Of a stretch of 64,000 bases of DNA, positions 11,936 to 61,671 are shown in pieces. The stretch spans positions 248,001-312,000 of the forward strand of contig JACQAM010000003.1 of the NCBI GenBank assembly GCA_016194975.1, read 5' to 3'. The position numbers were made by a program, and so were the translations under genes. A model generated the notes under the pieces. It was not told where the DNA came from. It was given only the letters and a program-made list of their open reading frames with translations, and did not search any database. Within the stretch, counting starts at the first letter, position 1, and each line of letters begins with the position of its first letter. Origin of the DNA: Bacteroidota bacterium (lineage in GTDB: Bacteria; Bacteroidota; Bacteroidia; Palsa-965).

Positions 11936-11977
11936 ATTATTTTTTTGTCTTTTCTCATCATTGTTCGCCAATGAAAA

Positions 11978-15409: not shown

Positions 15410-18400
15410 TCACTTGATCAGGTTCACCGAACCGATGAGCGAATGAGTTGCTCCATTCATATCGGTTGTCACCAGCTTCCACACATAAGTATCTTCCTGG
15501 CTGATGTCACTATGACCTTGTACTTTTCCGTCCCAACCTTTTGCGTAATCTGTGGTCGAGTAGATCATGTTTCCCCAGCGATCGAAGATCCACATCTGGA
15601 ATTTTGCGGGATCAATGCCGGTACAAACAGGATAGAAAATTTCATTGTTTCCGTCGCCGTTCGGTGTGAATGCATTCGGAACATAAATGGTCACATCCGA
15701 ATCGATACAAACCGGATGTGAGATCGTGTCCGTACATCCCTGCTGGTTCTGGACGGTGAGCAGCACTGTGAAACAATCCGGTGATCCGTATTCGAAAGAT
15801 GGATTCTCCAGTGAAGAAGCGGATTGATTCACATCACCGAAACTCCAGTTCCATGAATTTGCACCGGTCGAAAGATCGGTGAAATAAATCTGCGGATTCA
15901 GGATCGTCGTGGGTTGTGGAGAAGAACTGAAGTCAGCAACCGGTATAGGAGAAACAGAAATATAATTTGTTATTGTTACTGTATTCTGGCACCCATCCAC
16001 AGATTTCACAGTGAAAATGATCGTGTAATTTCCTGAGGTTGTATAACAATGTAATGGGCTTTGTGAAGTAGAAGTGTTGCTGTCACCAAAATCCCATGTC
16101 CATGCAGAGATTACTCCCGGATTCGCTATAGTTGACTGATCGGAAAAATTCACACAAACAGGAACACATCCTGCAACAACATCCGAAGTGAAATTCGCAA
16201 CAGGAACAGGATTCACTGTTATTGTCACTGAGTTGGAGGCGGTGCATCCATTCGCATCGGTCACTACTGCAGTATAAGTTGTTGTTGTTGCCGGGGTAAT
16301 ATTCTGCGAAGATCCGCTGAGATTCCCCGGTGACCAATTCACAGTGTAAGCAGGAACTCCACCTCCGGAATTCGCCGTGAGTACAGCGTTTTGTCCGCTG
16401 CAAATTGCCGTCGGCGCAACAGTAGTTTGTACAGTGAGAACCGGTGGTTCAGTGATCACGATCGTAACCGTGGATGAACATCCGTTCGCGTCTGTGACCA
16501 TTACCTGGTAAGATCCTGCAGCAATATTGGATGCGCTGTTAGAAGCAGAAACGTTTGGAGTCCAGGTGTAACTGTAAGGCCCTACTCCGCCGGCCTGGTT
16601 TACATTGATCACTCCTGTCGATTGTCCGTTGCAGAAAACATTGGTCAAGGCACCGGAAGAAGCAACTACAGTGGCCGGCGCAGTAATGGTGAAGGTTTGT
16701 GTTATAATACAACCATTCGCATCCGTGATGGTACACGTGTACGATTGCGCAGTGAGATTAGGAGCAGTTGCCGCATTTCCACCGGAAGGAGACCAGGAAT
16801 AAATGTAACCGGGAACACCACCGGAAGGATTAACAGTTGCCGATCCGGTATTTCCACCGCTGCACAACTCATCGATCTGCGATGCAGTTGTTGTCAATGC
16901 AGTTGGCTCAGTGATGGTGACTGATGAAGTGGTGCTGCATCCATTCGCATCCGTGAGCGTGCACGTGTAAGACTGCGCGCTGAGATTATTTGCACTCGCT
17001 GCATTTCCTCCCGAAGGTGACCACGAATAAATATAGGCGGGATTTCCTCCGGCTGCAGTAACGGTTGCACTTCCTGAATTTCCCCCATTGCATAAAATAT
17101 CTACCGAAGTGAGTGATGCAGTAAGTAAGGGCGGTTCGGTGAGCGTAACCGAATCTGTTGACGTGCATCCATTCGCATCAGTGAGCGTGCAGGTATAACT
17201 TCCTGCCGAAAGATTATTTGCAGTTGCATTGGTTCCGCCGGAAGGAGACCACGAATAAGTATAGGGCCCGTTTCCACCTGAAGGTGTAACTGTTGCAGAA
17301 CCGGTGCTGTTTCCATTACAAAGAATATTCGCAGATGCGGTGACTGTTACAGTTGGCGTACTCGCACCGACCACATTCACCGTTGCTGTTGATATACATC
17401 CGTTCGCATCCGTTACGGTCACAACATAAGAGCCTCCGTTCAAACCGGAAGCAGTTGCTCCATTTCCTCCCGTCGGACTCCAGGAATAAGTATAGCCGCC
17501 GGCTCCCCCCGCGGCATTAACGGTTGCAGTTCCGTTCGGACTTCCGCAAACAGAAGGCGTAGCGGAAGTGGTGAGCGTCATGGCCGATGGAGAGGTGATG
17601 GTGAAGGTTTGTGTTATAGCACAACCACTGGCATCCGTGATCGTGCAGGTATAGTTTTGTGCAGAAAGGTTCGACGCCGTTGCGGAATTTCCACCTGCAG
17701 GACTCCAGGAATAAGTATAGCCGCCGGCTCCTCCCGAAGGATTTACAGTTGCGGAACCATTGTTCACACTATTGCACTGCAAGTCCACATGTGAAGCCGT
17801 TGTTGTAATAGGCGTGGGTTGCGTGATAGTGATGGTTTGTGTTGTAGTACAACCTCCGCTGTTGGAAGCGGTCACGGTGTAGGTTCCTGCCGGAAGCGAA
17901 GAGGCGGTTTGCGCGACAGAAACGTTAGGACTCCACACATACGTGTACGCGCCTGCAGGATTAGGCGTTATGGTGGCACTTCCGTTATTTCCGCCGTTAC
18001 ACGAAACATTCGTTGACGTTTGAGTGGAAGTAGGCGAAGGTGCAAGCGTTACAGCGATACAGGTTTGCGGACCGGGGCCGCAAGCGCTCGATGGAGTGCA
18101 GCAAATATTTCCGGGTGTGCTTCCGGCAACAATGGTGATAGTCGCTGTTCCCTGTCCAGAAGTGATGGTGGTACCGGCGGGAACTGTCCATGCAAAAGAA
18201 GTCCAGCCGTTTCCATTATAAGTATACGATGCTGTTGCACCTGCGCAAAGTGTTAGGGGTCCCGTAATGGTTCCGCCGGAAGCGGCAGAATTCAGCGTGT
18301 AATAGATCGTTCCGTTGAAACGTCGCGGAGTAAAACTTGCTGCGAACGGATAATCTTTTCCTGTTCCGTCTTTCACCTGGAGATCGGCATTCGAAGCGAA

Positions 18401-18937
18401 CACAAATCCAACTGCAGTTCCATTGGTATAATTGACGATTGGCCCACCGGCAGTAGTTCGTGTAATATAAAATGCGACTGTGCACCCAGCGGTGACAGCC
18501 ACATTCACACTGACCGGAACGTAAGTAGCGAGGTTTGTTCCGAGTCCGGCAACGCTTGCGCTTCCGATGAGTGTCCATGCGCCGGGAGTAGTTGTGAATC
18601 CAACATGTGTTCCCACTTTATAATAGATCTCGACGTTCGTTGTGCCGGTGGCCATATTCACATCGAAACAATTGATGGTAATGTTAGAGAGTGCAGTAAT
18701 ATCGAACATGATCCCGCGCTGGCCATTATTCGTGTTGTAAGGAAGAATAAGATTGTTTGTTGACGCGCAGGCGAGCGGTTGATTCGGATTATTATTATTG
18801 GCTGCTGGCGTTGGATTATTCGATACGGTCATCGTATCGCCGGTATCCATGATGTAAGTGGAATATGCACTTTGATGTTGCGCAAAAGCAACAGCTGAAA
18901 ATGCAAATAAGAATGCGAATAGAAATCTATTCTTCAT
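15410..18937 (-). CDS. SprB-repeat T9SS type B giant adhesin
   Basis: A 1,175-residue surface protein related in architecture to the gliding adhesin SprB. ATG 18937 starts the signal peptide MKNRFLFAFLFAFSAVAFAQ. The N-terminal ~200 residues resemble a beta-sandwich with NGTIYYTL at its end, followed by one Ig-like unit. Seven SprB repeats of about 74 residues follow; each opens with a Cys-Asn-Gly-like turn and NGSATV, has GGxxxYTYSWSPxGG and ends DANGC. One Ig-like unit, two PKD domains (WTWDFGDSNTS, WNWSFGDVNQS) and the gliding C-terminal domain (VPNAFTPNGDGNNEIFY, FDRWGNMIYST) complete it. It is the first gene of the leftward cluster reaching to 8332. It is shorter than classical SprB, so it is a paralogue rather than the orthologue. 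Confidence 0.9.
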   Translation of the reverse strand: MKNRFLFAFLFAFSAVAFAQHQSAYSTYIMDTGDTMTVSNNPTPAANNNNPNQPLACASTNNLILPYNTNNGQRGIMFDITALSNITINCFDVNMATGTTNVEIYYKVGTHVGFTTTPGAWTLIGSASVAGLGTNLATYVPVSVNVAVTAGCTVAFYITRTTAGGPIVNYTNGTAVGFVFASNADLQVKDGTGKDYPFAASFTPRRFNGTIYYTLNSAASGGTITGPLTLCAGATASYTYNGNGWTSFAWTVPAGTTITSGQGTATITIVAGSTPGNICCTPSSACGPGPQTCIAVTLAPSPTSTQTSTNVSCNGGNNGSATITPNPAGAYTYVWSPNVSVAQTASSLPAGTYTVTASNSGGCTTTQTITITQPTPITTTASHVDLQCNSVNNGSATVNPSGGAGGYTYSWSPAGGNSATASNLSAQNYTCTITDASGCAITQTFTITSPSAMTLTTSATPSVCGSPNGTATVNAAGGAGGYTYSWSPTGGNGATASGLNGGSYVVTVTDANGCISTATVNVVGASTPTVTVTASANILCNGNSTGSATVTPSGGNGPYTYSWSPSGGTNATANNLSAGSYTCTLTDANGCTSTDSVTLTEPPLLTASLTSVDILCNGGNSGSATVTAAGGNPAYIYSWSPSGGNAASANNLSAQSYTCTLTDANGCSTTSSVTITEPTALTTTASQIDELCSGGNTGSATVNPSGGVPGYIYSWSPSGGNAATAPNLTAQSYTCTITDANGCIITQTFTITAPATVVASSGALTNVFCNGQSTGVINVNQAGGVGPYSYTWTPNVSASNSASNIAAGSYQVMVTDANGCSSTVTIVITEPPVLTVQTTVAPTAICSGQNAVLTANSGGGVPAYTVNWSPGNLSGSSQNITPATTTTYTAVVTDANGCTASNSVTITVNPVPVANFTSDVVAGCVPVCVNFSDQSTIANPGVISAWTWDFGDSNTSTSQSPLHCYTTSGNYTIIFTVKSVDGCQNTVTITNYISVSPIPVADFSSSPQPTTILNPQIYFTDLSTGANSWNWSFGDVNQSASSLENPSFEYGSPDCFTVLLTVQNQQGCTDTISHPVCIDSDVTIYVPNAFTPNGDGNNEIFYPVCTGIDPAKFQMWIFDRWGNMIYSTTDYAKGWDGKVQGHSDISQEDTYVWKLVTTDMNGATHSLIGSVNLIK

Positions 18938-18992
18938 GTGCCCGGAGTGTGTTTCAATTATGCGCTCTCCATGCCACTGGATTAAGCACATT

Positions 18993-47211: not shown

Positions 47212-47889
47212 ATGAAAACATTCAAATTCCTCCGGACATTTTTTTTCTTTTTGCCGGTACTCTTCCTGCAGAGTTGTTTCGAGATCGTGGAAGATGTGAC
47301 GATTCATAATGACGGAACCGGAACTTTTCTTTACACCTTGAATCTCAGCCAGAGCAAAGAACGTCTCGATGGATTAATGAAACTCGATAGTTCCGAAGGT
47401 TATCGCATTCCCCGCCGCGAAGAAATAGATGCTGATATTTCAAAAGGAAAAGCATCGCTCGAAAAATCGCTGGGCATCTCGAACGTGATCTCCACTGCAG
47501 ACTGGATCAATTATATTTTCACTGTAAAATTCGATTTCAATTCGGTGAACAATCTCAATCTCGCTCTTGAACTCGTTTCGCAGGAAGTAACGAGCGATCA
47601 CAAACGCATTCCGGAAGCGTCGGATAATTTTGCATTCACCGGAAAAATTTTCGACCGGAAAAGCAGTTATGATGCGAAGAAACAAAATGCGCAAATGACT
47701 CCGAAAGACAGGGAGATACTGAAAGACGCCACGTACACCTGCATTTACCGGTTCGATGACCCGGTAGCGAAAACAAGTAACGCCGACGCAAAAATATCCA
47801 AGAGTGGAAAAGCCGTTATGCTGAAATTGAATTTGCTCGCACTCGCCACCGGCCAAAAAAGTATCATCAATAAAATAGTGTTACAGTAA
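47212..47889 (+). CDS. Hypothetical lipoprotein, first gene of a three-gene operon
   Basis: A 225-residue lipoprotein of unknown function. The signal peptide MKTFKFLRTFFFFLPVLFLQSC ends in a lipobox (LQSC). The mature part starts FEIVEDVTIHNDGTGTFLYT, then a helical part (RREEIDADISKGKASLEKSL) and a beta part (WINYIFTVKFDFNSVNNLNL), ending in GQKSIINKIVLQ. The next gene begins four bases after its stop, so translation is probably coupled. The pattern 'IHNDGSG' followed by a helix occurs in several Bacteroidota lipoproteins; I cannot name a family. Confidence 0.7.
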   Translation: MKTFKFLRTFFFFLPVLFLQSCFEIVEDVTIHNDGTGTFLYTLNLSQSKERLDGLMKLDSSEGYRIPRREEIDADISKGKASLEKSLGISNVISTADWINYIFTVKFDFNSVNNLNLALELVSQEVTSDHKRIPEASDNFAFTGKIFDRKSSYDAKKQNAQMTPKDREILKDATYTCIYRFDDPVAKTSNADAKISKSGKAVMLKLNLLALATGQKSIINKIVLQ

Positions 47890-47893
47890 CCCC

Positions 47894-49939
47894 ATGAAAA
47901 ATATTTTCTTCGCTTTCCCGATCCTGTTCTCTACCGTTCTTACTGCCCAGGAAATTTCCACGCACATTCCTGCCAAAGCAACTTTCATCGTGATGATCGA
48001 TCCCGCAGCGCATGTGAAGAACGGCGATGTTTCCATCATCAAAAATCTCGACATGTTCACGCGCACGAATGAATATGGTTCGGGCGGAGTTAAATATGTT
48101 TTTGGCGATGACGATCTTGACGTGAAGCAGCAGGAATCGCTTCGGAATTTTTTCTCCGATATTTTTTCTCCATCGGGCAACACCGGCGTTGATACGGCAA
48201 GAAAAATTTTCATCTTCACTGAGAATGCCGATTCGGTTCATTACTTCGCTTATCTTTTTCCGCTGAAGGATCAGAATAGTTTTTCTTCTTACGTCACTGC
48301 AAAATTATTTTCAACTTCTCCTTCCATCGATAAAGGATCCGGATTTTCTGCGATCAACCAGGATCGCATTTCGCTTGGGTGGACCGGAACTTATGCCATT
48401 CTTCTTCTTGCCGATTACGACTACCTGCCGAATACAAATTCACAATATGATTACTGGAGAAATTTAATGCTGATGGACAGTGTACAGGCGGCACAACGTG
48501 CAATAGCAGATATGCAGGAGCAACAGGTCAGCGCCGATACCCTCATCACCGATAGTTTGCGCACAGCAAGAACAGATTCGCTGATGAATGAAAGTGCTGC
48601 ACTCATTGAAGAACTTTCAAAAGATTCCATTCCGGAAGAAGATGTGAATGTAAATTCCATGACAAATTTTCCGGAAATAAACGGGGAACCAGATGCGCAT
48701 AAAAATGATACGATCATTTCCGCTTATGTTTTTACAGAACTGAAACGCCTGATCAATCTCTCCTATGAAATTTCTGCAGAGTCCATTCCGAATTTCCGTT
48801 CAGTAATGGCAGAAAATTCTGATGCGGTCTATTGGTACAATTATGGCGAGATTATGCAACAGCGCTACCAAGCCACGATGCAGGAACGCCGTTCTCTTTT
48901 TATGATGCAGAATCTTACGCAGGATACGGCTGTGATCGCGAATATGTGGGAAGGATCGTACGTGGCGAGTCTTATTCATTTCAATGGTAACGATGCAACC
49001 ATGGAACAGCGGATGTATTTCACACCCATGCTGCAGGCGCACACGAACGGATTGTACAGCGGGCGCGTAAATAAAAAAATGTTCCGCTATGTGAAAGCCG
49101 ACAACCTGATGGGATTCATGGCCATGTCAGTCGACATGGAAAAATTTATGAAATTCTACGGCTCGGTTTATCGCGAAGGAATTCAGAATACGATGTACGG
49201 AATGTACAATGATTATTATCTCGCCATGTGGGACATCATCCGTGTTTTTCTCGATGAATCTACGCTATACAATATTCTCGACGGAAAATTCCTCGTCGCG
49301 GCGACAGATCTCAAACCTTACACCGCTTCCTATGTTTCTTATGAGTACGATGAGAATTTCAATATGACGGAAGTACGCAAGGAAAAAACAGAAGTGCGTC
49401 CCGAATTTATTTTCATTGCCGGGATAGGTGAAAAGAAAAAAGTGAACCAGATCCTTTCTGTTCTCGAACGCATTAATGCGGTGAAAAAACAGAATGCAGA
49501 ATATTATCTGATCAATACACCGGGAGAATATGACGTTCGCGTTTTTCTCGCTGTGAAAAACGGAATGCTCATCATCACGAACAATGAAGATCTCATGGTG
49601 AATCATCTCAATGGTTATCGCGGAAAATCTTCGATGAAGAAAAGTCTTGTGCATCTCGGAAGAAAAAGCCCGCTCGTTGGTTACTGGGACGGACAGAAGT
49701 CGATCGAACTGGTGAAGAAAAATGAAACGGAGGATCTGAGTGCGGAGGATAAAGAATCGCTCGATCTGCTGGCAGAAGAGGTGAACAACGGAACACTCAT
49801 CGGTAAACGATCGAAGAAAGGTGTGCAGCGTATTGTGATGACGATGCAATTCAACGAATCGGATAAAAAAGATAATGAAACAGGATTCGTGCGCTTTTTC
49901 CGTTTGTTGAATTCTCTTTTTCTCATTCGATCGAATTAG
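47894..49939 (+). CDS. DUF4836-like exported protein, second operon gene
   Basis: A 681-residue protein with signal peptide MKNIFFAFPILFSTVLTAQ. The opening IPAKATFIVMIDPAAHV resembles the N-terminus of the next gene's product (YIPRDAVAVLTLDMREL), and both share DYDENFN/EYDENFN followed by charged text, so they are related. A low-complexity Ser/Asp/Glu-rich insert lies around residues 195-275. The C-terminal half has LMGFMAMSVDMEKFMKFYG and PGEYDVRVFLAVKNGMLIIT. Families with this 'bacterial protein with no known enzyme motif' layout (DUF4836/DUF3352-like) are envelope proteins. A periplasmic role is likely; function unknown. Confidence 0.65.
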   Translation: MKNIFFAFPILFSTVLTAQEISTHIPAKATFIVMIDPAAHVKNGDVSIIKNLDMFTRTNEYGSGGVKYVFGDDDLDVKQQESLRNFFSDIFSPSGNTGVDTARKIFIFTENADSVHYFAYLFPLKDQNSFSSYVTAKLFSTSPSIDKGSGFSAINQDRISLGWTGTYAILLLADYDYLPNTNSQYDYWRNLMLMDSVQAAQRAIADMQEQQVSADTLITDSLRTARTDSLMNESAALIEELSKDSIPEEDVNVNSMTNFPEINGEPDAHKNDTIISAYVFTELKRLINLSYEISAESIPNFRSVMAENSDAVYWYNYGEIMQQRYQATMQERRSLFMMQNLTQDTAVIANMWEGSYVASLIHFNGNDATMEQRMYFTPMLQAHTNGLYSGRVNKKMFRYVKADNLMGFMAMSVDMEKFMKFYGSVYREGIQNTMYGMYNDYYLAMWDIIRVFLDESTLYNILDGKFLVAATDLKPYTASYVSYEYDENFNMTEVRKEKTEVRPEFIFIAGIGEKKKVNQILSVLERINAVKKQNAEYYLINTPGEYDVRVFLAVKNGMLIITNNEDLMVNHLNGYRGKSSMKKSLVHLGRKSPLVGYWDGQKSIELVKKNETEDLSAEDKESLDLLAEEVNNGTLIGKRSKKGVQRIVMTMQFNESDKKDNETGFVRFFRLLNSLFLIRSN

Positions 49940-49947
49940 CACGCGGC

Positions 49948-51492
49948 ATGAAAAAATTTTTGCGGATAAGTTTTACCGTCATCCTGATCCTTGCTGCCGG
50001 GGCAATGTTCACCTGGTTCCTTTTCATCCGCAGAACGATCCCGGTACAGGCAAAATATATTCCGCGTGATGCAGTCGCAGTACTTACACTCGACATGCGC
50101 GAATTGTCCATCGATCTTTCATCGGGCAAACATCTTTTTCCTGAAATGAAAAATTTTCCTGCCAAAGGGATCTTTGCAGATATCAAACGTGCGGTGGATG
50201 CGAATCATGGTTCGGGTATGGTTGAGAGTGCCGATGTGGTTGCTTTTATTTTCCGTGAAAAAGAAAATGCATTTCTCGCTGTGAGCGCGCGGTTGAATGA
50301 TGAAACTGTTTTTTCTTCGCTCGTCACCAAAGAGATCGCAAAAAAATATCCGGTGAATGAAATTAATTCTCCGGGAATAAAAAAATTCTGCGTAGATACG
50401 GCGCACAATGCTTTGATAAGCTGGAATAAGGAGATCGCACTTTTTCTTGTTCCGCTCAGCAACTCGGATCTTGTAACCTGCGGCGATGCGGCAGAAAAAA
50501 TTCTCACGATGAAAGAAGAAGTGTCGTTGATGGAAGATGAGAATTTCTGTTCGCACGAGCGGTCTTCTTTCGATGCCGGCATCTGGATTCACGCCGGGCC
50601 TCTTCTTGAATTTTCGAAAGGTGGCACATTCTTCCGGGATCTTTTTGATAATGTGGATTATCTCTCATTCAATATTATTTTTTCGGATGGAAATATTTCC
50701 GCCAGAAAATTAGTGACGAAAAAAAAATCTGCGGCACCGGATGAGATTGTTCCCTGTATTCCTGCTCCCGTGAAGGATATTCGCGGATTTTTCAATTTCT
50801 GTCTTCACCTGGAAAATGATGAAGCAACGAACAACACGGCACGTATTGCACCGCTGGATGAACTTCCATTGGAAACAAATGAAACAGTTGCTCTTTGTAA
50901 ATTTCTTAACGGGCAATGTACCGTATTGCTTCATGACACTTTCAGTTCTGTGCAGCACTTCATCACTTTTGATTACGATGAAAATTTCAATCCGGTGGAA
51001 AGAACAGCTACACGAAGTATCTCTGCGCTCGGAAAAACTATCTGCTTCGGATTGAAAAAAAATTTGAACGCTGCTTCATTCATTGATTCCATTATGAAAA
51101 AAGACAGCGTAGAAAAAAAGAATGGTGCGTACCTGGTTGATGATAATGGAACCTTGTTCCGGTTAATGCTCTCCGGCAATGAACTGATCTGGACAAATTG
51201 GAAAGGAACCGATGGCGCATCGTACGAACTGCCGGATGAATGGTCGGGAAAATCATTGTATCTCGATCCGCGATCGTGGTTCAATTCGGAGAACAGCGAA
51301 GTCTTCAGTTTCATTCTGCCCGATCCTGATAATGGAAAAAAAATTATTCAACAGCAGATCGCACATCTTTCGCTGGATGAAACCGCGGATACAGGAAAAA
51401 CAGGATCATCGGAATTCATTATTGAGATGAAAAATAAAAATATAAATGCACTGATCCAGCTCGCAGATATTGCCCGAAAATTAATGGAATGA
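49948..51492 (+). CDS. DUF4836-like membrane-anchored protein, third operon gene
   Basis: A 514-residue protein. A single N-terminal helix (FTVILILAAGAMFTWFLFI) probably anchors it in the inner membrane with the bulk outside. The body opens PVQAKYIPRDAVAVLTLDMR, then SADVVAFIFREKENAFLAVS, and has FITFDYDENFNPVERTATRS, similar to YVSYEYDENFNMTEVRKEKT in the preceding product. It starts eight bases after that gene. Its TGA stop (51490-51492) abuts the TCA of the opposite-strand gene at 51493, so no terminator fits between. Function unknown; the operon may form an envelope complex. Confidence 0.65.
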   Translation: MKKFLRISFTVILILAAGAMFTWFLFIRRTIPVQAKYIPRDAVAVLTLDMRELSIDLSSGKHLFPEMKNFPAKGIFADIKRAVDANHGSGMVESADVVAFIFREKENAFLAVSARLNDETVFSSLVTKEIAKKYPVNEINSPGIKKFCVDTAHNALISWNKEIALFLVPLSNSDLVTCGDAAEKILTMKEEVSLMEDENFCSHERSSFDAGIWIHAGPLLEFSKGGTFFRDLFDNVDYLSFNIIFSDGNISARKLVTKKKSAAPDEIVPCIPAPVKDIRGFFNFCLHLENDEATNNTARIAPLDELPLETNETVALCKFLNGQCTVLLHDTFSSVQHFITFDYDENFNPVERTATRSISALGKTICFGLKKNLNAASFIDSIMKKDSVEKKNGAYLVDDNGTLFRLMLSGNELIWTNWKGTDGASYELPDEWSGKSLYLDPRSWFNSENSEVFSFILPDPDNGKKIIQQQIAHLSLDETADTGKTGSSEFIIEMKNKNINALIQLADIARKLME

Positions 51493-52113
51493 TCACTGAT
51501 TGATAATAGGAAGAGAATCTTTGTTCGACTGGTAACCGATACAGACTCCGGCGCGGAAACCATATTGCTGCACTTTATTATTGGTAAGATAGATCATCGT
51601 TAAGGAAACCTGCGGCGCAATATAGATGGGCCATTTCAGATCCGGTAAAAGTTTTACGCGATAAACGATACTCCCGCTCATGCGCGCACGATCTTCGTAA
51701 GGAAAATAGTGATGCCAGTAATCGACATCGAGAGGATCAATAGAAATGTGCTGCACAATTTTTCCGTGACCGAAATACATTCCAGCGCCATTCGGAACCA
51801 GCACAAGAATAAATCCGAGATAATTCACGTACTGCACACCGAGACTGTGATACATCAGCCACAATCCCGCAATGGCTCCCGCAGAAGTGTGTGCATAAAA
51901 TCCGCCGCCGTCCTGGAAGCCAATCCCCGATTGATAATTCAGTGTGAATTTTCCTCCACCAACAGGATAATGTAAAATTCCGCCGAACTGTTCCTGTCCT
52001 TTATATCCAAGCTGAAAATGTTCGGCGTACAATCCTCCTTCCACTTTTCCCTGTGAAAATAAAGATGAAATAAAAAGCAGGAGACCTGCTCCTGCTGAAA
52101 AAAATATTTTCAT
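51493..52113 (-). CDS. Small outer-membrane beta-barrel-like protein
   Basis: A 206-residue exported protein with signal peptide MKIFFSAGAGLLLFISSLFSQ. The rest alternates hydrophobic and polar residues with frequent Gly/Tyr (GGLYAEHFQLGYKGQEQFGG, HYPVGGGKFTLNYQSGIGFQ, YIAPQVSLTMIYLTNNK), consistent with a small barrel, though the C-terminus (SNKDSLPIINQ) lacks the usual terminal aromatic. It starts nine bases after the PorE-like gene and closes a four-gene leftward operon with a PorP/SprF protein and a type B adhesin, so it may be an accessory of that module. No family recognised. Confidence 0.7.
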   Translation of the reverse strand: MKIFFSAGAGLLLFISSLFSQGKVEGGLYAEHFQLGYKGQEQFGGILHYPVGGGKFTLNYQSGIGFQDGGGFYAHTSAGAIAGLWLMYHSLGVQYVNYLGFILVLVPNGAGMYFGHGKIVQHISIDPLDVDYWHHYFPYEDRARMSGSIVYRVKLLPDLKWPIYIAPQVSLTMIYLTNNKVQQYGFRAGVCIGYQSNKDSLPIINQ

Positions 52114-52122
52114 ATCAGAACA

Positions 52123-54321
52123 TCAGTGAGGATTATTCGGATCAGAAGTGCCGCCGTTTGACGGTGCTTTCAAATGAGAATTCTCTGGAATTTTTCCTTC
52201 CCACTTGTCGCGGATCACTCCTTCTTTGATCGGGCGGAAAGAAGTGCGCCGGTTTTTCTGGTGCGCGGCTTCCTGCTGCTCTTTCGGTAATGCATAAAGT
52301 TCTTTGTCGGCAATGAGCGGTTGTGTTTCACCATAACCTTTCGCCTGCAAACGATCAGCCGCAATGCCTTTCGAAATAAGATAATCGACGCAACTTTTTG
52401 CACGTGCGGCAGAAAGATTCATGTTATACACGTCACTTCCGCGCGTGTCTGTGTGCGAAGCGATCTCCACGCTGATATTGTCATTCAGTTCCAGGAATGC
52501 AACAAGATCGTCCAGCACTTTCTGTGATTCGGGACGAAGTGTTGCACGGTCGAAATCATATTCAATACCGGGAATAACAATTTCTCCAGCGGGAATTGGT
52601 GTGAGATAGAAATCGTGTTCGAAATGTTTGCTGTCGGTAAGTCCAACAGTAGAAATATTTGTAGCATCGCCGAAATATTTATTTTTCTGCGCTTTGATGT
52701 AAAGTTCTTCCCCCAACTGGAGATCGGCATAATAATATCCGGCAGTATCTGTGATCGCGAAAAAAGGATCCACATTTCCACGAATATCTTTGAAAGTAAC
52801 GAGTGCGCCTTCTATTGGTTTTCCTGTTTCTTTATCATACACATGTCCGCTGATGGAAAAAACAAGCGGCTCATTCGAGAAAGAATAAGCGCGATAGCAA
52901 TAACCACTTCCGGGTCCGCAGGAATTACACGGTTCGCGATCCGAAGAAAAATAACCGTGCTGTTGCGTACGGTCGAGAACGAAATAAGCATCGTCGCGCG
53001 ATGAATTGAAAGGAGCTTCAAGATTTTTCGGAACAGTCCAGGTGGAATCGTCGGCATTGAATGCAGTTTTCATTACATCAAATCCGCCGAAACCACCCAT
53101 GCCATTTGAAGAATAGAAAAGTGTACTCGAAAGGAAATGATAAAAAGGTGTGATCTCATCGCCACTGGTATTAATACTCTTGCCCATATTTATGGGAGCA
53201 GTACAATTTCCTTCATCATCCACTTGTGTCATCCAGATGTCGAGTCCGCCTTGTCCGCCCGCACGATCAGAAACAAAATAAAGTGTGGATCCGTCATTGG
53301 AAAGAAAAGGCATCATGTTCCTGCATCCGGGTTGATTCACATTCGCATCGAGTAATTTCGGTGCAAGCCACTGGTCGTTCACATTTTTCGACATGTAAAT
53401 GAGGCATTGTTTTCCATCATCGCTCCATCGCGTAAAGAAAACATTCGCTTTGCCGAATGAAACCATAGCAGCGCCTTCATTCATCGTGGTGTTGATGCTG
53501 GTCACCTGGCTTTGCAACTTCTGCACATTTCCCCAATGTTCACCGCTCAATTCTGCTGTGTAAATATCTGTAGAGTACGCATCGAGGCCGAGCTTGGTCA
53601 GTTCAGGTGTGGAAGTATTTCCAGCTTTTGCAGCAGTGAAAATAAGTGAATTCGGATCGCCGAAATAATTCGCAGAAAAAACTGCAGTGCCTGCATTGAT
53701 AACACTGTCGAGTTTTGTAACGATCACTTCTTTCTTCAGACTGTTTGTGTCCATTGCAAAAACACAACCTGCACTGAAACGAGTTGCCTTTACAAATTCA
53801 GGAGAAGAGGCGTCGAGCGGTTCACTGTAAATATCAAATTGTGTAATGGCATCTGTATATTTTGCATTATTCATCAACGCAACTCCATAACGGAATCGGG
53901 TGTCAGGAAAACGAACGTCGGGCATAAAGATTGCCTGACGGAACCACAGTTCTGCATTATCATAATCGTGAATGTTCTGGTAACATTCTGCAATACGATG
54001 CACCACGTAACGTGTGCGCGCATCATTGCCTTTCACGAGTTCAGGATTTTTCAGCGAAGAATCGGATGACGCAGATTTAAGTGCTGACGAATCCACGATC
54101 TTACTCGCAGGTGTGTAAGGCTTGCATTCGTATGGAGTGACCAGGTCGCGATCCATTCCTTCGGTCATAGTCACCACATGCTGGTAACACGCGAGCGCGA
54201 GTTTGTAATTTTTATCGTCGTATGCTTTGTCGCCGAAGTCAATCCATTCGCGGCGACTCTGTGCATGAACAGAATTGAAGAGCGGAAATAAAAACAGGAA
54301 GAAAAAAATAATACGCCTCAT
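52123..54321 (-). CDS. PorE-like TPR/PD40/OmpA envelope protein
   Basis: A 732-residue protein with the domain order of the T9SS component PorE. A signal peptide (MRRIIFFFLFLFPLFNSVHA) precedes TPR-like helices (YDDKNYKLALACYQHV). WD40/PD40-like beta-propeller repeats follow (MPFLSNDGSTLYFVSDRAGG, TLFYSSNGMGGFGGFDV), then a carboxypeptidase-regulatory-like domain (GHVYDKETGKPIEGALVTFK) and an OmpA C-terminal peptidoglycan-binding domain (IEYDFDRATLRPESQKVLDD, IASHTDTRGSDVYNMNLSAA). No lipobox is seen, unlike P. gingivalis PorE. ATG 54321 overlaps the PorP stop as ATGA, implying translational coupling. It probably ties the PorP/adhesin complex to the cell wall. Confidence 0.88.
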   Translation of the reverse strand: MRRIIFFFLFLFPLFNSVHAQSRREWIDFGDKAYDDKNYKLALACYQHVVTMTEGMDRDLVTPYECKPYTPASKIVDSSALKSASSDSSLKNPELVKGNDARTRYVVHRIAECYQNIHDYDNAELWFRQAIFMPDVRFPDTRFRYGVALMNNAKYTDAITQFDIYSEPLDASSPEFVKATRFSAGCVFAMDTNSLKKEVIVTKLDSVINAGTAVFSANYFGDPNSLIFTAAKAGNTSTPELTKLGLDAYSTDIYTAELSGEHWGNVQKLQSQVTSINTTMNEGAAMVSFGKANVFFTRWSDDGKQCLIYMSKNVNDQWLAPKLLDANVNQPGCRNMMPFLSNDGSTLYFVSDRAGGQGGLDIWMTQVDDEGNCTAPINMGKSINTSGDEITPFYHFLSSTLFYSSNGMGGFGGFDVMKTAFNADDSTWTVPKNLEAPFNSSRDDAYFVLDRTQQHGYFSSDREPCNSCGPGSGYCYRAYSFSNEPLVFSISGHVYDKETGKPIEGALVTFKDIRGNVDPFFAITDTAGYYYADLQLGEELYIKAQKNKYFGDATNISTVGLTDSKHFEHDFYLTPIPAGEIVIPGIEYDFDRATLRPESQKVLDDLVAFLELNDNISVEIASHTDTRGSDVYNMNLSAARAKSCVDYLISKGIAADRLQAKGYGETQPLIADKELYALPKEQQEAAHQKNRRTSFRPIKEGVIRDKWEGKIPENSHLKAPSNGGTSDPNNPH

Positions 54322-55334
54322 AATCTCGGACAATTGGGTGCAACAACAGGAGTTTTTCTTTTCGCAATATAAATGACAGAGAATTCAATTCCACCGCGGC
54401 TGTTGGTAGATGGCTGAAGTGTGGAAACATTCACATCATAACTCATGCGGTAAGTGAAAGGACCATTCTTCAATCCGACTTCAAATATTGCTGCATCAAA
54501 ATCATGAAGATCATGCGGGCCTACATAGCGGAAAGTGGGGCCGAAGATGAGATAGGAATCTGAATTCGGCAGAAATAAATTCGCCATCAAACCAAAAACC
54601 ATTTCATAATCATTCGCCTGGTGCATGTAAAGGAACCTCGGTTGCAATTGGATCTTCTCATTGATACCGATGCGCGTTCCTGCATGAATGATGTAATGGA
54701 TAGGCAATTTATTGGTCACACCATAAAATGATTCATTCGGTTGATTGAGATGAAATGCAGAAAAACCGATGAATGGATTTAAACGCGATCCTTCTTTTGC
54801 ATAATAGTAAAGTGCGCCTGCCGTAACATCAAGCATATATTTTCTTTCCACACCACTGAAATTTTCTCCGCTTGGAATTGAAGTGTCAAAAGTTCCGTCG
54901 TCTGCAAGTGTGTACTGGCTTCCCCAATAGAGACGATTGAAGTCAACACTTTTCTGAATGACACCCGCTTCCATTCCGAATGCAACGTGGTGATAATTAT
55001 TTTTGTCACACTGCAAATCATAAGCGCCCGACAAATTCAACTGAAGCACATTGAAATTTCCGTAGCCCGCGCGATTATTCATGATCTGTGCTCCAACTCC
55101 GAATCGATTAACGGGCATGTCCCATGCAATGGCAGCAGTCTGAAAAGGTTTAGTTGAAACAGCAGACCATTGATTACGATAATTCGCATGAATGCGATAG
55201 TATCCGTCGAACATTCCGGTCATCGCAGGATTCAGGTAAATCTTCGCCGCATCATAATGAGTGAGATGAAGATCCTGCGCAGAAAAACTCAGCGGGAAGG
55301 AAAACACCACAATATGAAAAATAATTTTTCGCAT
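54318..55334 (-). CDS. PorP/SprF family type IX secretion membrane protein
   Basis: A 338-residue outer-membrane barrel. A signal peptide (MRKIIFHIVVFSFPLSFSA) leads into QDLHLTHYDAAKIYLNPAMT, the family hallmark, then NYRNQWSAVSTKPFQT and Gly/Tyr-rich strands. It lies 22 bases after a type B adhesin gene and overlaps the PorE-like gene by four bases (ATGA). SprF, a homologue, is required for surface localisation of the SprB adhesin, so this copy is probably the partner of the 1,052-residue neighbour. Sequence identity to the copy at 10892-11935 is clear but limited, so the two are specialised paralogues. Confidence 0.92.
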   Translation of the reverse strand: MRKIIFHIVVFSFPLSFSAQDLHLTHYDAAKIYLNPAMTGMFDGYYRIHANYRNQWSAVSTKPFQTAAIAWDMPVNRFGVGAQIMNNRAGYGNFNVLQLNLSGAYDLQCDKNNYHHVAFGMEAGVIQKSVDFNRLYWGSQYTLADDGTFDTSIPSGENFSGVERKYMLDVTAGALYYYAKEGSRLNPFIGFSAFHLNQPNESFYGVTNKLPIHYIIHAGTRIGINEKIQLQPRFLYMHQANDYEMVFGLMANLFLPNSDSYLIFGPTFRYVGPHDLHDFDAAIFEVGLKNGPFTYRMSYDVNVSTLQPSTNSRGGIEFSVIYIAKRKTPVVAPNCPRL

Positions 55335-55356
55335 TTTATTTCAACTTGAAATTCAT

Positions 55357-58300
55357 TTAACGCAACAGCGTTACATCGCCACTCAATTCATGTGGAACTC
55401 CATCTGGTGTTACGGCATGAACTGTGTAAACATAAACGCCCATTGGCTGAGGAACACCGTCACGTTTTCCATCCCAACCGATTGATTGATCAGTGGAAAT
55501 AAATATCAGTTCGCCCCAGTTATTATAAATTCTGTAATCGAGCGTTGTGAAGGGTCCACCGAGAACAAAAAGTATTTCATTGTGTCCGTCACCATTAGGC
55601 GAGAAAGCATTCGGGATCTGCGGAGGAGAACTGATGATGTAATCATACAATGTTGTATCTGTGCAACCATTCGCATCTGTGACCACGAGGACGATCGTGT
55701 AAGTTCCTGCCTGCGCCCAGGTGTGCGAAGGATTCTGCAAACTGGAAGTTGCAGAAGAATCTCCGAAATTCCAGAGCCATGAATTTATATTTGCAAAAGA
55801 CTGATCGGTGAACTGAACGAGTTGCAATGTATTCGCTGCTGAAGTCGGAGATTCCGTGAACTGTGCAGTAGGCGATGGAACAATATTCACGGCTTGCGTA
55901 AGCGTATCAGCACATCCGTTACTGGAAGTCACCACCAGTGTTACGTTGTAATTTCCAGGTGAAGGATAATGATGCGATGGAGATTGAGAAGTTGACGTTG
56001 ATGCATCGCCGAAATTCCATGACCAGCTTACAATACTTCCGGGATTCACAGTGGAAAGATCAGTAAATGTTGTTCCATCATTCAAACAAATTCCTGCTGA
56101 TGAAAATGCAGGTGTTGGCTGCGGATAAACAGTGACAGGAATAATGACTGAATCAGGACATCCGTTCTGGGAAGTAACAACCAGTGTCACGTTATAATTT
56201 CCACCTGCTGAATAAGTATGCGAAGGATTTTGCAACGCAGAAGTATTATTCGTTGGAGGATCACCAAAATTCCAACTCCAGGAAGTGATCGCAGTTACAG
56301 AAGTTGATTGATCGCTGAACGGCATACTCACCCACGGACAAACTCCGGTGTATGTGAATTGCGCCGACGGCGCAGGAATGATCGTCACAAATAAAGTATC
56401 ATGTTGCTGACGACATCCGCCATTGTTCGTTGAATTGAAAATGATCTGAACATTTCCGGCAGCAAGATCGCCGGGGCCTGGAAGATAATTTGAAGTGAGC
56501 AGCGAATCTCCCATTGGGAAAGTTCCGTCACCATTTGTTGTCCAGTAACCCTGTCCGGTTGCAGTAGTTGCGATGATCTGGAATGGAATATTACTGCATG
56601 CAGTATCGGTTGATGAAGCACTTACATTGGGCGGAGGTGTAAGCGAAAGAATAAGTGAATCCATTGTAGGATTGCAGGAACCATTTCCTGTAGTTGAAAC
56701 CCAAAGTATAACCGAACCTGAAGCTGTGTCAGCAGCACTTGGAATATAATTCGTGCAAAGATTATTCGGATTGTTGAAAGTTCCTGTTCCCGAAGTTGAC
56801 CACGTTACACCACTTGCAAGTGTGATAGATGCGCAAACAGCGACAAACGGCGTATCGCGGCATACAACTATGTCAGGTCCTACCGATGCAGTTGGACCTG
56901 GAGTGAAATCAATTCTTACTGAATCCTGATCCTGCGAACACAATGTAGCACCCGTAGTATTCAGGACAAGATAAGTGAATCCTGCTGTGATCTCCGCTGG
57001 TGTTGGAATATAAGTGGCATTAAGAACAGTTGAATCCGGTGTAAAAGTTCCGGGACCAGTCCAGTAACCACCGCCTGAAGAATTCAAAACATTTCCACCA
57101 AGTCCGATGTTTGGATTATTTGTGCAAGTGAATGTGTCGTTTCCTGCGAGTGCGATCGGAGCAGCGATGATCTGAACAACCGTGTAATCGGTGTCATCAC
57201 ATCCGAGATCATTTGTTGCTGTATGCGTAACGGTGTATGATCCACTCGCGCCATACGCGTGTGATGGATTCTGCAAAGTAGAACTTGTCATGTCACCAAA
57301 ATCCCAATAATAAGATGTGATGGTTGAATTCGGTGAAGCTGTTGATGCATCAGTGAATGTGATCGGTTGTCCAACACATGCACTATCGTTTGAAGCACCA
57401 GTGGCTACATTCACAAATGATAAATTCACAACAGCAGTTGCCGTATCAGCACAAGCAGTTCCTACATTGATGATCAGTGTAGCATTGTAAGGCCCTAATC
57501 CCGGATAAGTATAACTCGGCTGAAATGCAGACGAAGTATCCGTCGTTGTACTTAAATCACCAAAGTTCCAGAAATAACTTGAAGCCGGATCTGAAGTGTT
57601 GCTGAAGTTCACTGTACTTCCGGAACAAACTCCGGTGATCGGACCAATAGATGCCTGAGCAAGCGGAGGACAATAAACAACGTTCAACTGAAAGTCACGC
57701 AGTATCTCACCGATCTTTACCCCATTCCTGTATTCCTCACATCTTACTCCGCAAACAAATTGTCCAACGCTTGTTGGAGAACCGGAAATAAATCCGGTTT
57801 GAGAATTCATAGTAAGATTTGGGCCGCCGGTAGGATTGTTGGGTCCGTAGCCACCTACCCATGTGATAGGAGTGAATGTTGCAATGCCTCCAGGAAATGT
57901 TGGGGCGGGATCAGAATATGGAGTGTAGTAGGAATAAACAAGTGAATCTCCATCAACATCCGTTGCAGAATGATCGAAGTTCATCGGTTCGTTCTGGCAA
58001 ACAAAAACAGGAGGAGGATTGGTCCAAACCGGACTGCCATCCGTTATCACCAGCGAGTTGTCGGGAATATGAGCATACCATGATTCCCCGGTGGTAAGTG
58101 GACTAACCACATTGCTCAACGATGCATTCCTGCAACAGTATTGGAAATAGATATGATACCCGCCGGGTTGCGGTGGAAGATTATTTACAACTTTAGAATA
58201 GATCGCTTCTTCGAGACAAATTCCGGGATTTGCCGCGCAGGTATCTATGTATGGTTGAACGGCAGTTGCGCCAGGAAAATTGATCGTGATATTTTTATTA

Positions 58301-58515
58301 GGAGAAAAAAGAGTTCCATTCTGATCACGTACCTGTATCAAAATGCTAGCCGGAAAAGCAGCATGACCCGGCGCACAATCACGATACATTTTAAGTGTGA
58401 TGCGATAAGTAGAACCTCCAAGATGTTCATAGGTGAGTGATCCTCCTACTATGTGCGTGGCGTTTGCGAACAATGCGAAAAGCAAAGCTGCGCACAACAG
58501 GGTAAAGCGTTTCAT
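55357..58515 (-). CDS. Large T9SS type B (CHU_C) protein with PKD domains
   Basis: A 1,052-residue exported protein. After the signal peptide (MKRFTLLCAALLFALFANA) comes the ~280-residue domain shared with the protein at 24638: THIVGG, YRDC, QVRDQNGTLFSPNK, PPQPGGYHIYFQYCCR, DVDGDSLVYSYYTPYSDP, RCEEYRNGVKIGEILRDF. Then two PKD domains, three Ig-like units with paired Cys, three more PKD domains (NFGDxxxxxxLQNPSHT pattern) and the gliding C-terminal domain (IPNAFSPNGDGHNEILF, IYNNWGELIFIS, GWDGKRDGVP). It heads a leftward four-gene operon with PorP/SprF and PorE-like genes. A surface adhesin role is likely. Confidence 0.9.
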   Translation of the reverse strand: MKRFTLLCAALLFALFANATHIVGGSLTYEHLGGSTYRITLKMYRDCAPGHAAFPASILIQVRDQNGTLFSPNKNITINFPGATAVQPYIDTCAANPGICLEEAIYSKVVNNLPPQPGGYHIYFQYCCRNASLSNVVSPLTTGESWYAHIPDNSLVITDGSPVWTNPPPVFVCQNEPMNFDHSATDVDGDSLVYSYYTPYSDPAPTFPGGIATFTPITWVGGYGPNNPTGGPNLTMNSQTGFISGSPTSVGQFVCGVRCEEYRNGVKIGEILRDFQLNVVYCPPLAQASIGPITGVCSGSTVNFSNTSDPASSYFWNFGDLSTTTDTSSAFQPSYTYPGLGPYNATLIINVGTACADTATAVVNLSFVNVATGASNDSACVGQPITFTDASTASPNSTITSYYWDFGDMTSSTLQNPSHAYGASGSYTVTHTATNDLGCDDTDYTVVQIIAAPIALAGNDTFTCTNNPNIGLGGNVLNSSGGGYWTGPGTFTPDSTVLNATYIPTPAEITAGFTYLVLNTTGATLCSQDQDSVRIDFTPGPTASVGPDIVVCRDTPFVAVCASITLASGVTWSTSGTGTFNNPNNLCTNYIPSAADTASGSVILWVSTTGNGSCNPTMDSLILSLTPPPNVSASSTDTACSNIPFQIIATTATGQGYWTTNGDGTFPMGDSLLTSNYLPGPGDLAAGNVQIIFNSTNNGGCRQQHDTLFVTIIPAPSAQFTYTGVCPWVSMPFSDQSTSVTAITSWSWNFGDPPTNNTSALQNPSHTYSAGGNYNVTLVVTSQNGCPDSVIIPVTVYPQPTPAFSSAGICLNDGTTFTDLSTVNPGSIVSWSWNFGDASTSTSQSPSHHYPSPGNYNVTLVVTSSNGCADTLTQAVNIVPSPTAQFTESPTSAANTLQLVQFTDQSFANINSWLWNFGDSSATSSLQNPSHTWAQAGTYTIVLVVTDANGCTDTTLYDYIISSPPQIPNAFSPNGDGHNEILFVLGGPFTTLDYRIYNNWGELIFISTDQSIGWDGKRDGVPQPMGVYVYTVHAVTPDGVPHELSGDVTLLR

Positions 58516-58551
58516 CAGAAGTACAATGTATTTAATTGGTGTTTGCTGTAG

Positions 58552-58581
58552 CTAAGATACGATAAATGAGAGTATTTCAAA
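58552..58581 (-). promoter_or_regulatory. Promoter of the adhesin-PorP-PorE operon
   Basis: Minus-strand TTTG (58581-58578), an 18-base spacer and TATCTTAG (58559-58552) match the Bacteroidota promoter with one deviation. ATG 58515 lies 36 bases further on. Confidence 0.5.
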
Positions 58582-58599
58582 CACATGAAAATCAAAATT

Positions 58600-59052
58600 T
58601 TATTTATTCGAATCCAGCAATTCAAGTTCAAGAAATCCCCCGAAATTACAAGCGGTGGCGTGCACGTAATATTTCCCGCTTTTGTAATTGGATAAATTGA
58701 TCACTTTCCTGTTCATTAGGGCCGAAAGACCTTCATCCACGGATTGAATAACAGGTTCTCCTTTATGATCGCCGAAAAGTAGACGATTATAATTTTTCTG
58801 ATCATAAAGAAATACCTGCGAATGATTTTCACTGCCGGGAAATAAAACAAGAATACTGTCGTCAGGAAATTTTCTTACGATGAGTATCGGTTGCAAAGCA
58901 AACCGCGATGAATCCGTCAGTTCAAGATACGATCCCGGGATTTCAATTTTCTGAAATTCTCTTTCCTTCGAAAAAAATACCCATAACACGACTGCCCCGG
59001 CAGTAACGAGAACGATCACAGCAATTACAATTGGGAAAAAAGTTCTTTTCAT
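58600..59052 (-). CDS. Hypothetical protein with N-terminal membrane anchor
   Basis: A 150-residue protein of no family I recognise. A single N-terminal helix (FFPIVIAVIVLVTAGAVVLW) followed by FSKEREFQK anchors it in the membrane, or serves as an uncleaved signal. The soluble part is compact and mostly beta: SYLELTDSSRFALQPILIVR, DDSILVLFPGSENHSQVFLY, then KYYVHATACNFGGFLELELL. It precedes the adhesin operon on the same strand by 84 bases that contain the operon's promoter, so it is probably transcribed separately. Confidence 0.65.
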   Translation of the reverse strand: MKRTFFPIVIAVIVLVTAGAVVLWVFFSKEREFQKIEIPGSYLELTDSSRFALQPILIVRKFPDDSILVLFPGSENHSQVFLYDQKNYNRLLFGDHKGEPVIQSVDEGLSALMNRKVINLSNYKSGKYYVHATACNFGGFLELELLDSNK

Positions 59053-59157: not shown

Positions 59158-61671
59158 ATGACCCCCCAATTGAAACTTGCATATTTTGTGGGACTTTTTT
59201 TGTCTGCGAACTTGTCTGCTCAGATCGATGTGCAATGGGTTGGACGCTATTCTTCCGCAGGAAATAATGTTGACCGCGCAAAAAAAATGGTGGTCGATGC
59301 GGCCGGCAACAGTTTTGTTGTAGGCACCAGCTGGAACGGCGCAAATTATGATATTGTAACTGAAAAATTCAATACGAACGGAGTTCCCACCTGGACCGCA
59401 ACGTACAACGGAACCGGCAATGCTTATGATGAAGCAAGAGCGATCGCTTTGGATCCTTCGGGAAATGTTTATGTAACCGGGTACAGCGCAGGCCCTGCTT
59501 CTAATTATGATATTGTAACTATAAAATATAATGCTGCAGGTGCGCAGCAATGGGCTTCGCGATACAATGGAAGTGCGAACGGTTTCGATGAAGGTTATGA
59601 TGTAATGGCTGATGCTGCCGGAAATGTTTATGTGACCGGTGGTGCCGAAGTGACTTCAAACAGCACCGATTTCATGACCATCAAATACAATGCGGCCGGT
59701 GCACAGCAATGGGCAAGCAATTATAATTTTTCCGGTGCGAATATCGACGAAGCCTACGCAATGACGATGGATGCTTCAGGAAATATTTTTGTCACCGGTT
59801 ACAGTTATACAAGTGCAGCAAATGATTTTGACATTGCAACAATAAAATACAATAACAGTGGTGCGCAACAATGGGTTTCGCGTTACAATGGCCCCGGAAC
59901 TAATTTCGATGCCTCCACCGATATAGCACTCGATGCATCAGGAAATATTTTTGTCTGCGGTTACGCAAGAGGAACTTTATCTGTAACTGATTATGACGCG
60001 GTGACCATCAAGATCAATGCTGCCGGCGCTCAGCAATGGGCAAAAACTTATAATGGCCCCGGCAATGATTATGATCGCGCAAATGCAATTACTATTCTGC
60101 CCGATGGAAATGTAGCGATAACCGGCCGCTCCGTTGGAACAATTTCTACTGCGGAAGATATGATCACTATCCTCTACAACGGAATTTCCGGAAACGAAAT
60201 TTGGAATCGCCGTTATGATGGAGGAGTGGTGAATTACGATGAAGGACAAGCGATCGTTCCTGATTCTTCGAACCGGCTTTTTGTTACAGGATACAGTTAT
60301 GCGACCGGGGCAAATAATAATTATCTCACTATAAAATATGAAGCGAACGGAGATACTTCGTGGATCGTGAAATATAATGGAACAGGTAACAATGCTGACC
60401 AGGCCTACAGCATTGCTATGGGGATGACCGGAGAATTTTATGTAGGCGGAATGAGCAAAGGTTTTGGAACGAACGAAGATTACGCGGTTGTGAAATATTG
60501 CCAGCTGAGAGCGATCGGTTCCAATGATACTTCAATTTGTCTCGGAGCAACCACTCAACTTTCTGCAAGTTCATCTTATGGCACTATAGACAGCGTTTGG
60601 TGGACTCCTTCCACTTTTCTCAATCAATCCAATATTGCAAATCCTGTTTCTACTCCGAACACGACCACCACTTATATTCTTCATTTGCGAAATCAATATG
60701 GTTGCATAGATGAAGATACTATTACCATCACCGTTAATCCATTGCCCGGACCTGCGATCACTTCAAGCGGACCTGTAAATTTTTGTGTGGGAGGATTTGT
60801 CACTCTCACTGCGGATGATACAACAAGCACGAATGAAACTTATCTCTGGAATACCAGTGACACTACTGCCAGCATCACGGTTTCTTCAACAGGATTGTAT
60901 TCCTGCACGATCACCAATGGCAGCGGATGTTCCAGTCTGAGTTCGATCAATGTCAATGTAAATCCGCTACCGACAATTTCTGCCGGAAATGATACCGGGT
61001 TGTGCCAGAGTTCGAGCATTGTACTTTGCGCAACAGGCGGATCTACTTATGCGTGGACTCCTCCGTTCGGCGTAAGCGATACTACACTTGCATGTCCGAC
61101 AGTCGGGCCAACTTCAAGCACCACTTACATTGTTTACGGAACTGATGCAAATGGTTGTTCCAGTTCAGACACAGTTCTTGTTTCACTCTATCCTCCTCCC
61201 TCCATTCCGGTAATCACACAGAATTTTTCTGTTTTCACTTCCACTTCCGCTGCAACTTACCAATGGTATTTCAACAGCACGTTGATCCCGGGAGCAACCG
61301 GCCAATCTTACACTGCAACACAAAATGGTTCTTACTACGTGGAAATAACTGATGCCAATGGATGCAGCGCTTTCTCGGCACCGATCTCCATCAACGATGT
61401 TAGTGTTCAGGAAATTGATGTCAATAACCCGATCGCACTTTATCCGAATCCGAATAATGGAAATTTCATTGCTGAATTTGACCAGGACGGAATGAAAGGC
61501 GATATTTCCATCACCGACTTAGCAGGGAAGATCATCTTTATCAGGTCATTTGCGGCAGGTGTAAATTATCATGGAGAATTCTCCCTTGATCTTCCGTCAG
61601 GCGTTTATTTTATTAAAGTGACTTTCGAAGACGGCGCTGTCCACACGCGGAGAATGATCATCAGCGAATGA
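59158..61671 (+). CDS. SBBP beta-propeller T9SS type A protein
   Basis: An 837-residue exported protein with signal peptide MTPQLKLAYFVGLFLSANLSAQ. Residues ~25-440 contain about eight SBBP-type repeats of ~50 residues, each with a DxxGNxxVTG strand, DYDIVTIKYN and GAQQWxxRYNG, forming a propeller. Ig-like units with Cys pairs follow (CLGATTQLSASSSYGT, CVGGFVTLTADD, LCQSSSIVLCATGGSTYAW). The end is a type A T9SS signal (IALYPNPNNGNFIAEF, ITDLAGKIIFI, SGVYFIKV). Surface attachment is expected; the ligand is unknown. It has its own promoter and terminator. Confidence 0.9.
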   Translation: MTPQLKLAYFVGLFLSANLSAQIDVQWVGRYSSAGNNVDRAKKMVVDAAGNSFVVGTSWNGANYDIVTEKFNTNGVPTWTATYNGTGNAYDEARAIALDPSGNVYVTGYSAGPASNYDIVTIKYNAAGAQQWASRYNGSANGFDEGYDVMADAAGNVYVTGGAEVTSNSTDFMTIKYNAAGAQQWASNYNFSGANIDEAYAMTMDASGNIFVTGYSYTSAANDFDIATIKYNNSGAQQWVSRYNGPGTNFDASTDIALDASGNIFVCGYARGTLSVTDYDAVTIKINAAGAQQWAKTYNGPGNDYDRANAITILPDGNVAITGRSVGTISTAEDMITILYNGISGNEIWNRRYDGGVVNYDEGQAIVPDSSNRLFVTGYSYATGANNNYLTIKYEANGDTSWIVKYNGTGNNADQAYSIAMGMTGEFYVGGMSKGFGTNEDYAVVKYCQLRAIGSNDTSICLGATTQLSASSSYGTIDSVWWTPSTFLNQSNIANPVSTPNTTTTYILHLRNQYGCIDEDTITITVNPLPGPAITSSGPVNFCVGGFVTLTADDTTSTNETYLWNTSDTTASITVSSTGLYSCTITNGSGCSSLSSINVNVNPLPTISAGNDTGLCQSSSIVLCATGGSTYAWTPPFGVSDTTLACPTVGPTSSTTYIVYGTDANGCSSSDTVLVSLYPPPSIPVITQNFSVFTSTSAATYQWYFNSTLIPGATGQSYTATQNGSYYVEITDANGCSAFSAPISINDVSVQEIDVNNPIALYPNPNNGNFIAEFDQDGMKGDISITDLAGKIIFIRSFAAGVNYHGEFSLDLPSGVYFIKVTFEDGAVHTRRMIISE

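Follow-up and report, generated by a model that had tools for sequence, protein, structure and literature searches.

Why some adhesins of the type IX secretion system (T9SS) glide and others stay in place is not settled. Here we describe an adhesin operon in a 64,000-nucleotide stretch of DNA from a Bacteroidota bacterium (contig JACQAM010000003.1, positions 248,001 to 312,000, called the window below), whose carrier and PorE-like proteins bear matched cysteines that may join them covalently. The closest described systems come from Porphyromonas gingivalis and Flavobacterium johnsoniae. A PorE-PorP-PG1035 complex is known from P. gingivalis, six porP-like genes of F. johnsoniae adjoin porE-like genes, and SprF-SprB is a published homologous pair (Gorasia 2022, PMC9143113). 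Type B substrates require cognate carriers, and five F. johnsoniae operons contain a PorE homologue; static foci were seen for Fjoh_3952 and static anchoring was suggested for the operon with a PorE homologue (Paillat 2025, PMC12618676). SprF, the carrier of a gliding adhesin, forms a disulfide between its C-terminal tail and GldK, as does PorG, and in F. johnsoniae the cysteine pair is on SprF and the reacting cysteine on GldK (Liu 2025, PMC12635249).

The window contains a unit of this known type, and the operon as such is already in the literature. Its three genes and the two cysteine sites discussed below are:

55357 to 58515, minus strand: type B T9SS adhesin of 1052 residues (Pfam PKD_4 and CHU_C; NCBIfam TIGR04131)
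54318 to 55334, minus strand: PorP/SprF-like carrier of 338 residues (PF11751 and TIGR03519; orthologues in 43 public loci)
52123 to 54321, minus strand: PorE-like protein of 732 residues (TPR, beta-propeller, CRD and OmpA; best Foldseek match 6TOP)
54330 to 54332, minus strand: codon of Cys335 in the carrier C-terminal tail (...PVVAPNCPRL), predicted to bond to the PorE-like protein
52894 to 52941, minus strand: loop in the last propeller blade of the PorE-like protein with Cys465, Cys468 and Cys475 (DREPCNSCGPGSGYCY), predicted acceptor of the carrier tail cysteine

These three and a fourth leftward open reading frame (ORF) at 51493-52113 are separated by gaps of 22, -4 and 9 nucleotides, just as an earlier sequence-only reading of this DNA had described. 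The 22 nucleotides lie between the type B gene and the carrier; the -4 is an ATGA in which the carrier stop overlaps the PorE start at 54321.

The adhesin has a signal peptide, a conserved N-terminal 'HIVGG...YRDC' domain, PKD domains and a CHU_C/type B C-terminal sorting domain (CTD). It matches PKD_4 with 243 bits, CHU_C with 47 bits (cut-off 27) and the TIGR04131 type B CTD with 37.1 bits (cut-off 35), while the carrier matches PF11751 (PorP_SprF) with 121 bits (cut-off 22.3) and TIGR03519 with 173 (cut-off 90.6). With both proteins over the Pfam and NCBIfam cut-offs, the sequence-only reading was right to name them a type B PKD adhesin with a CHU_C signal and a PorP/SprF protein. Its third assignment, a TPR-propeller-OmpA protein like PorE, holds for the domain plan and the structural match. 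The order TPR, propeller, CRD and OmpA peptidoglycan-binding domain is that of PorE (PD40 and OmpA exceed their cut-offs; the TPR and CarboxypepD_reg matches are weak), and the AlphaFold2 model (mean predicted local distance difference test, pLDDT, 83.7) finds its best Foldseek match in 6TOP, the C-terminal domain of P. gingivalis PorE. It does not hold for the family score or the lipid anchor: the protein reaches 326 bits with the NCBIfam PorE model (NF052230), which demands 600 bits, and for this reason we call it PorE-like rather than PorE; no lipobox was found in its signal peptide (N-terminus MRRIIFFFLFLFPLFNSVHAQSRREW). Its length is counted from an ATG, four codons after the TTG at which the ORF list begins. 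In the window genome, 21 matches to the PorP family and 55 to the type B CTD were counted, 52 of the latter over the cut-off. Judged by coordinates, fifteen PorP genes come directly after a same-strand type B gene, and in four of these cases, the window triad included, a PorE-like gene comes next.

The arrangement is well conserved. We collected 43 orthologous carrier loci from public genomes, whose carriers are 39-72% identical to that of the window. A type B gene lies directly upstream of the carrier in 40 of the 41 loci with upstream sequence, and the adhesin orthologues upstream of the carrier in relatives are 50-68% identical; a PorE-like gene lies directly downstream in all 42 loci with downstream sequence, usually overlapping or a few bases away. 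This conserved order and tight spacing, together with the published homologues, supports for the first three genes the earlier claim of a surface-display module plugged into the core T9SS, and we are highly confident that they form an adhesin-carrier-PorE export unit.

Like the P. gingivalis PorE-PorP-PG1035 system, the unit combines a type B substrate, a PorP carrier and a PorE with the same domain plan; there PorE bridges carrier and peptidoglycan, the role that we propose for the window protein. P. gingivalis PorE, unlike the lipobox-free protein here, is a lipoprotein, and a disulfide has not been reported for it. The operon trio of F. johnsoniae, Fjoh_3952-3950, is the same, with PorE directly after the carrier and proposed static anchoring, although its adhesin differs and the Paillat paper is silent on any matching of carrier and PorE cysteines. 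With SprF-GldK and PorG-GldK the unit shares a PorP-family carrier, a periplasmic C-terminal tail cysteine, a disulfide to a periplasmic partner (predicted in our case) and vicinal donor cysteines. However, SprF has the pair on the carrier and the single cysteine on the moving track, whereas the window is predicted to have the single cysteine on the carrier and the pair on a static wall anchor.

We propose the following mechanism, in which the roles of the three proteins are inferred from published homologues. The adhesin would leave the cell through the core T9SS translocon by means of its type B C-terminal signal; from type B membership we predict export via SprA to the surface and binding to the carrier. 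The neighbouring PorP/SprF-like barrel would collect it and, still bound, serve as its anchor in the outer membrane. On the periplasmic side, the PorE-like protein would bind this barrel and, via its OmpA domain, peptidoglycan, resulting in static attachment; by analogy with the F. johnsoniae and P. gingivalis homologues, the triad would form a complex that is statically anchored in the window organism too. Finally, the carrier cysteine four residues from the C-terminus would form an inter-protein disulfide with the cysteine pair in the last propeller blade of the PorE-like protein. Such a bond would covalently join barrel and wall anchor, and would hold PorE at the outer membrane despite the missing lipid anchor of P. 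gingivalis PorE. Taken as a whole, a static three-gene unit with a carrier-PorE disulfide is in our view the likely explanation of the locus. What would be new is the matching of the carrier and PorE cysteines and the covalent tether that it predicts; the triad itself is published. No report of a PorP-PorE disulfide was found in the open-access literature, a search that leaves preprints and most subscription journals outside its coverage.

The cysteine on the carrier side is very constant. It stands alone, not as Cys-X-Cys, at position -4 in all 42 full-length orthologous carriers next to a PorE, and it is at -4 in nearly all other triads with a cysteine in the tail as well (118 at -4 and 5 at -5 in the set made before the last addition of sequences). 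On the PorE side, the cysteine loop is flanked in the AlphaFold2 model by strands 455-460 and 477-482. In other members of the class this loop has a vicinal CC, mostly before a DIY or similar strand, and ordinary PorEs have SNRxGGxGxDDIY-like loops with no cysteine. Crocinitomix catalasitica ATCC 23190 (locus L093) is a laboratory strain that has such a triad, with the carrier tail ...IPTCPKI and a cysteine loop in its PorE.

The two sites go together. Over all PorEs read in the analysis, the loop pair is present in 134 of 134 triads with a tail cysteine, missing in 15 of the 18 triads without one and missing in 88 of the 90 PorEs that have no adjacent carrier. These counts include a correction of the carrier state of locus L266, which we rejected as an exception to the rule: a frameshift interrupts its carrier ORF, and the PCERF tail is read in a different frame. 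In the redundancy-reduced sets, made before the last addition of sequences, all Cys-tailed triads keep the pair (119 of 119 at 98% identity, 63 of 63 at 60%). With descent ignored, Fisher's test gives p = 4e-13 for the triads of the 60% clusters. Among the PorE residues, Cys475 separates the two groups best, and the other conserved PorE cysteines are independent of the state of the tail. We also considered that the tail cysteine could be a by-product of the overlap with the PorE start codon; this was ruled out because the residue is kept in loci with 54-81 nucleotides between carrier and PorE. Of the 63 clusters of PorEs next to a Cys-tailed carrier, just one has a lipobox-like N-terminus, and this near-absence fits an anchor that is held by its carrier.

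Three nested lineages have lost the tail cysteine and the PorE pair together. In L301 the carrier tail reads PANRLF, against PCNRLF or PCKRLF in its relatives, and the PorE loop NIGDDIF, against NCCDDIF (sister L299, support 97-98). The clade of L311, L327, L328 and L329 has PG[DN]RLL in the carrier and KLDDIF, RLDDIF or RIDDIF in PorE. The third, L353, has IIGPHL and RTTTDDIY where its sisters have ILCPHL and KTCCNDIY. The other conserved PorE cysteines are retained in L301 and L311. From this co-occurrence and co-loss, and by analogy with SprF-GldK, we lean towards a carrier-PorE disulfide. It also seems fairly probable that, across Bacteroidia, PorP-like carriers of static adhesins are joined in this way to a PorE-like anchor, via a C-terminal cysteine and a pair that is often vicinal.

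Several observations weigh against this. One clade of three triads (L107, L361 and L372), the one exception to the rule among triads, retains the PorE CC and has Ala for Cys in the carrier tail. Two pair-bearing PorEs (L275 and L351) have no directly adjoining carrier; the L275 genome encodes unlinked carriers with the Cys tails FPCPRI, LPCPRL and YCPRL, so pairing in trans is possible. When changes are counted as independent pairs, four are concordant, none opposite and one uninformative (two-sided p = 0.125), a value limited by the small number of changes on the tree. Many carriers without a PorE have tail cysteines too, so PorE need not be the only partner of such a residue. For the window organism, static anchoring is itself extrapolated from F. 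johnsoniae and P. gingivalis.

These points bear on two other explanations. The cysteines could be co-inherited with no bond between the proteins, the PorE pair being an intramolecular disulfide that stabilizes its loop and the tail cysteine having another role. Most of the pattern does fall within two or three PorE clades, the independent changes are as few as their p-value indicates, and the clade with a pair and no tail cysteine is what such a history would allow. That said, both sites stay invariant while the length of the loop, its motif (CxxxxC or CC) and most of the tail vary, and exactly these residues were lost on both sides in the three lineages; we judge co-inheritance unlikely. Less likely still is that the tail cysteine bonds, like that of SprF, to GldK in the gliding track, which would make the adhesin mobile and leave PorE without a part in the bond. 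The tail position follows the logic of SprF and PorG, a single-cysteine tail works in P. gingivalis PorG (PMC12635249), and the cysteine tails of carriers without PorE agree with it. However, a GldK bond leaves unexplained why the PorE pair occurs only beside Cys-tailed carriers and is lost with the tail cysteine, and PorE-linked substrates have been proposed to be static, the moving ones having no linked PorE (PMC12618676). A carrier-PorE disulfide is the reading that we prefer.

Carriers also occur in other settings. In tandem units of flavobacterial and Crocinitomicaceae-type genomes (L075, L076, L077, L081-L089 and L092) a type B-carrier pair is followed by type B-carrier-PorE, and the tail of the first carrier is charged (Lys/Glu) and lacks Cys. 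Orphan carriers with no adjacent PorE (L097, L099, L100, L102, L103, L111-L117, L119-L122, L125-L127, L130, L132 and L133) are largely from Saprospiraceae; in most of them the tail bears two cysteines, at -13 and -4, and has a YCPNF-like end, and their partner is possibly GldK. The window itself has a second T9SS cluster on the minus strand (8332-18991) with no PorE gene. Two of its genes encode type B adhesins, one with SprB repeats (15410-18991) and one at 11978-15241. They are accompanied by genes for a PorP-like carrier (10892-11971) with no Cys in its tail and for a PKD protein of type A (8332-10842).

The fourth gene of the locus is a different matter. The sequence-only reading had made it a candidate for an undescribed accessory of the module, and two features are relevant here:

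51493 to 52113, minus strand: 206-residue secreted protein, putative small outer-membrane barrel; triad neighbour only in the window genome (G000) and in G001
52076 to 52096, minus strand: terminator-like hairpin and T run (consensus match only)

The protein had zero matches in Pfam and NCBIfam and none that was significant in PHROGs, and no relative of solved structure was found; an AlphaFold2 model from two sequences has a pLDDT of 32.7, and the barrel fold is putative. A four-gene module with this barrel as a dedicated adhesin accessory would suit the shared strand and the short gaps to the triad, 9 nucleotides here and 22 in the same-genus genome G001. Comparison of gene order across relatives argues strongly against it, and we reject a place for the gene in the module on synteny. 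The separation seen among relatives is the outcome that the sequence-only reading had itself named as a refutation. Outside the window, the gene adjoins the triad in just one of the 43 orthologous carrier loci (the G001 record). The window genome and five of the six same-genus genomes examined have the gene; G007 has the triad without it. In G003, G005 and G006 it lies next or close to an alpha/beta-hydrolase gene, near a MarR gene and a DUF4836 cluster; an incomplete G002 contig shows the same hydrolase side, and in G029 it is unlinked to the triad. The hairpin, 27 nucleotides past the PorE stop and within the first codons of the 206-residue gene, hints in the window at the same conclusion, but it was not found in G001. 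We therefore regard a four-gene module as very improbable; the gene is a chance neighbour of the conserved module, to judge from gene order. Its stop abuts that of a convergent DUF4836 gene (51492/51493); the most economical view is that two neighbourhoods were brought together by a single rearrangement in the G000/G001 line. The convergent gene belongs to a three-gene cluster on the plus strand (47212-51492; 225, 681 and 514 residues, the last DUF4836-like and just under the cut-off) that is conserved in the genus and is the usual neighbourhood of the 206-residue gene.

Upstream of the adhesin, two further features can be placed:

58550 to 58581, minus strand: possible promoter TTTG-N18-TATCTTAG upstream of the adhesin
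58600 to 59052, minus strand: 150-residue protein with one predicted N-terminal membrane segment; orthologues in the same place in G001, G003, G006 and G007

The sequence-only reading put all four genes behind one promoter. A candidate at about 58581 is present and a promoter upstream of the adhesin is plausible, but the candidate is weak, with one mismatch to the Bacteroidota -33/-7 consensus TTTG/TAnnTTTG, and across the window exact matches to this consensus occur only at chance frequency; a sigma-70 scan was uninformative. The 150-residue gene directly adjoins the adhesin gene, 84 nucleotides upstream, and this position is kept in the four relatives listed. Its product matches no family. 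It may be the first gene of the unit, on the same transcript as the adhesin. The divergent gene on the other strand, at 59158-61671, codes for a protein with SBBP/delta-60 repeats and a type A sorting domain; in several relatives (G001, G003, G006, G007, G029 and public loci) the orthologue is likewise found next to the triad.

The analysis takes the 206-residue gene out of the module. If the proposed disulfide is real, the tail cysteine and the PorE pair would be a code readable from sequence, and a testable rule, for static anchoring. It would account for the retention of PorE-like proteins at the outer membrane when they have no lipid anchor, and would be one more of the very few permanent disulfides known between proteins of the periplasm. 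The disulfide logic of the gliding carriers would also have a second use, a static one, with the pair and the single cysteine on opposite partners.

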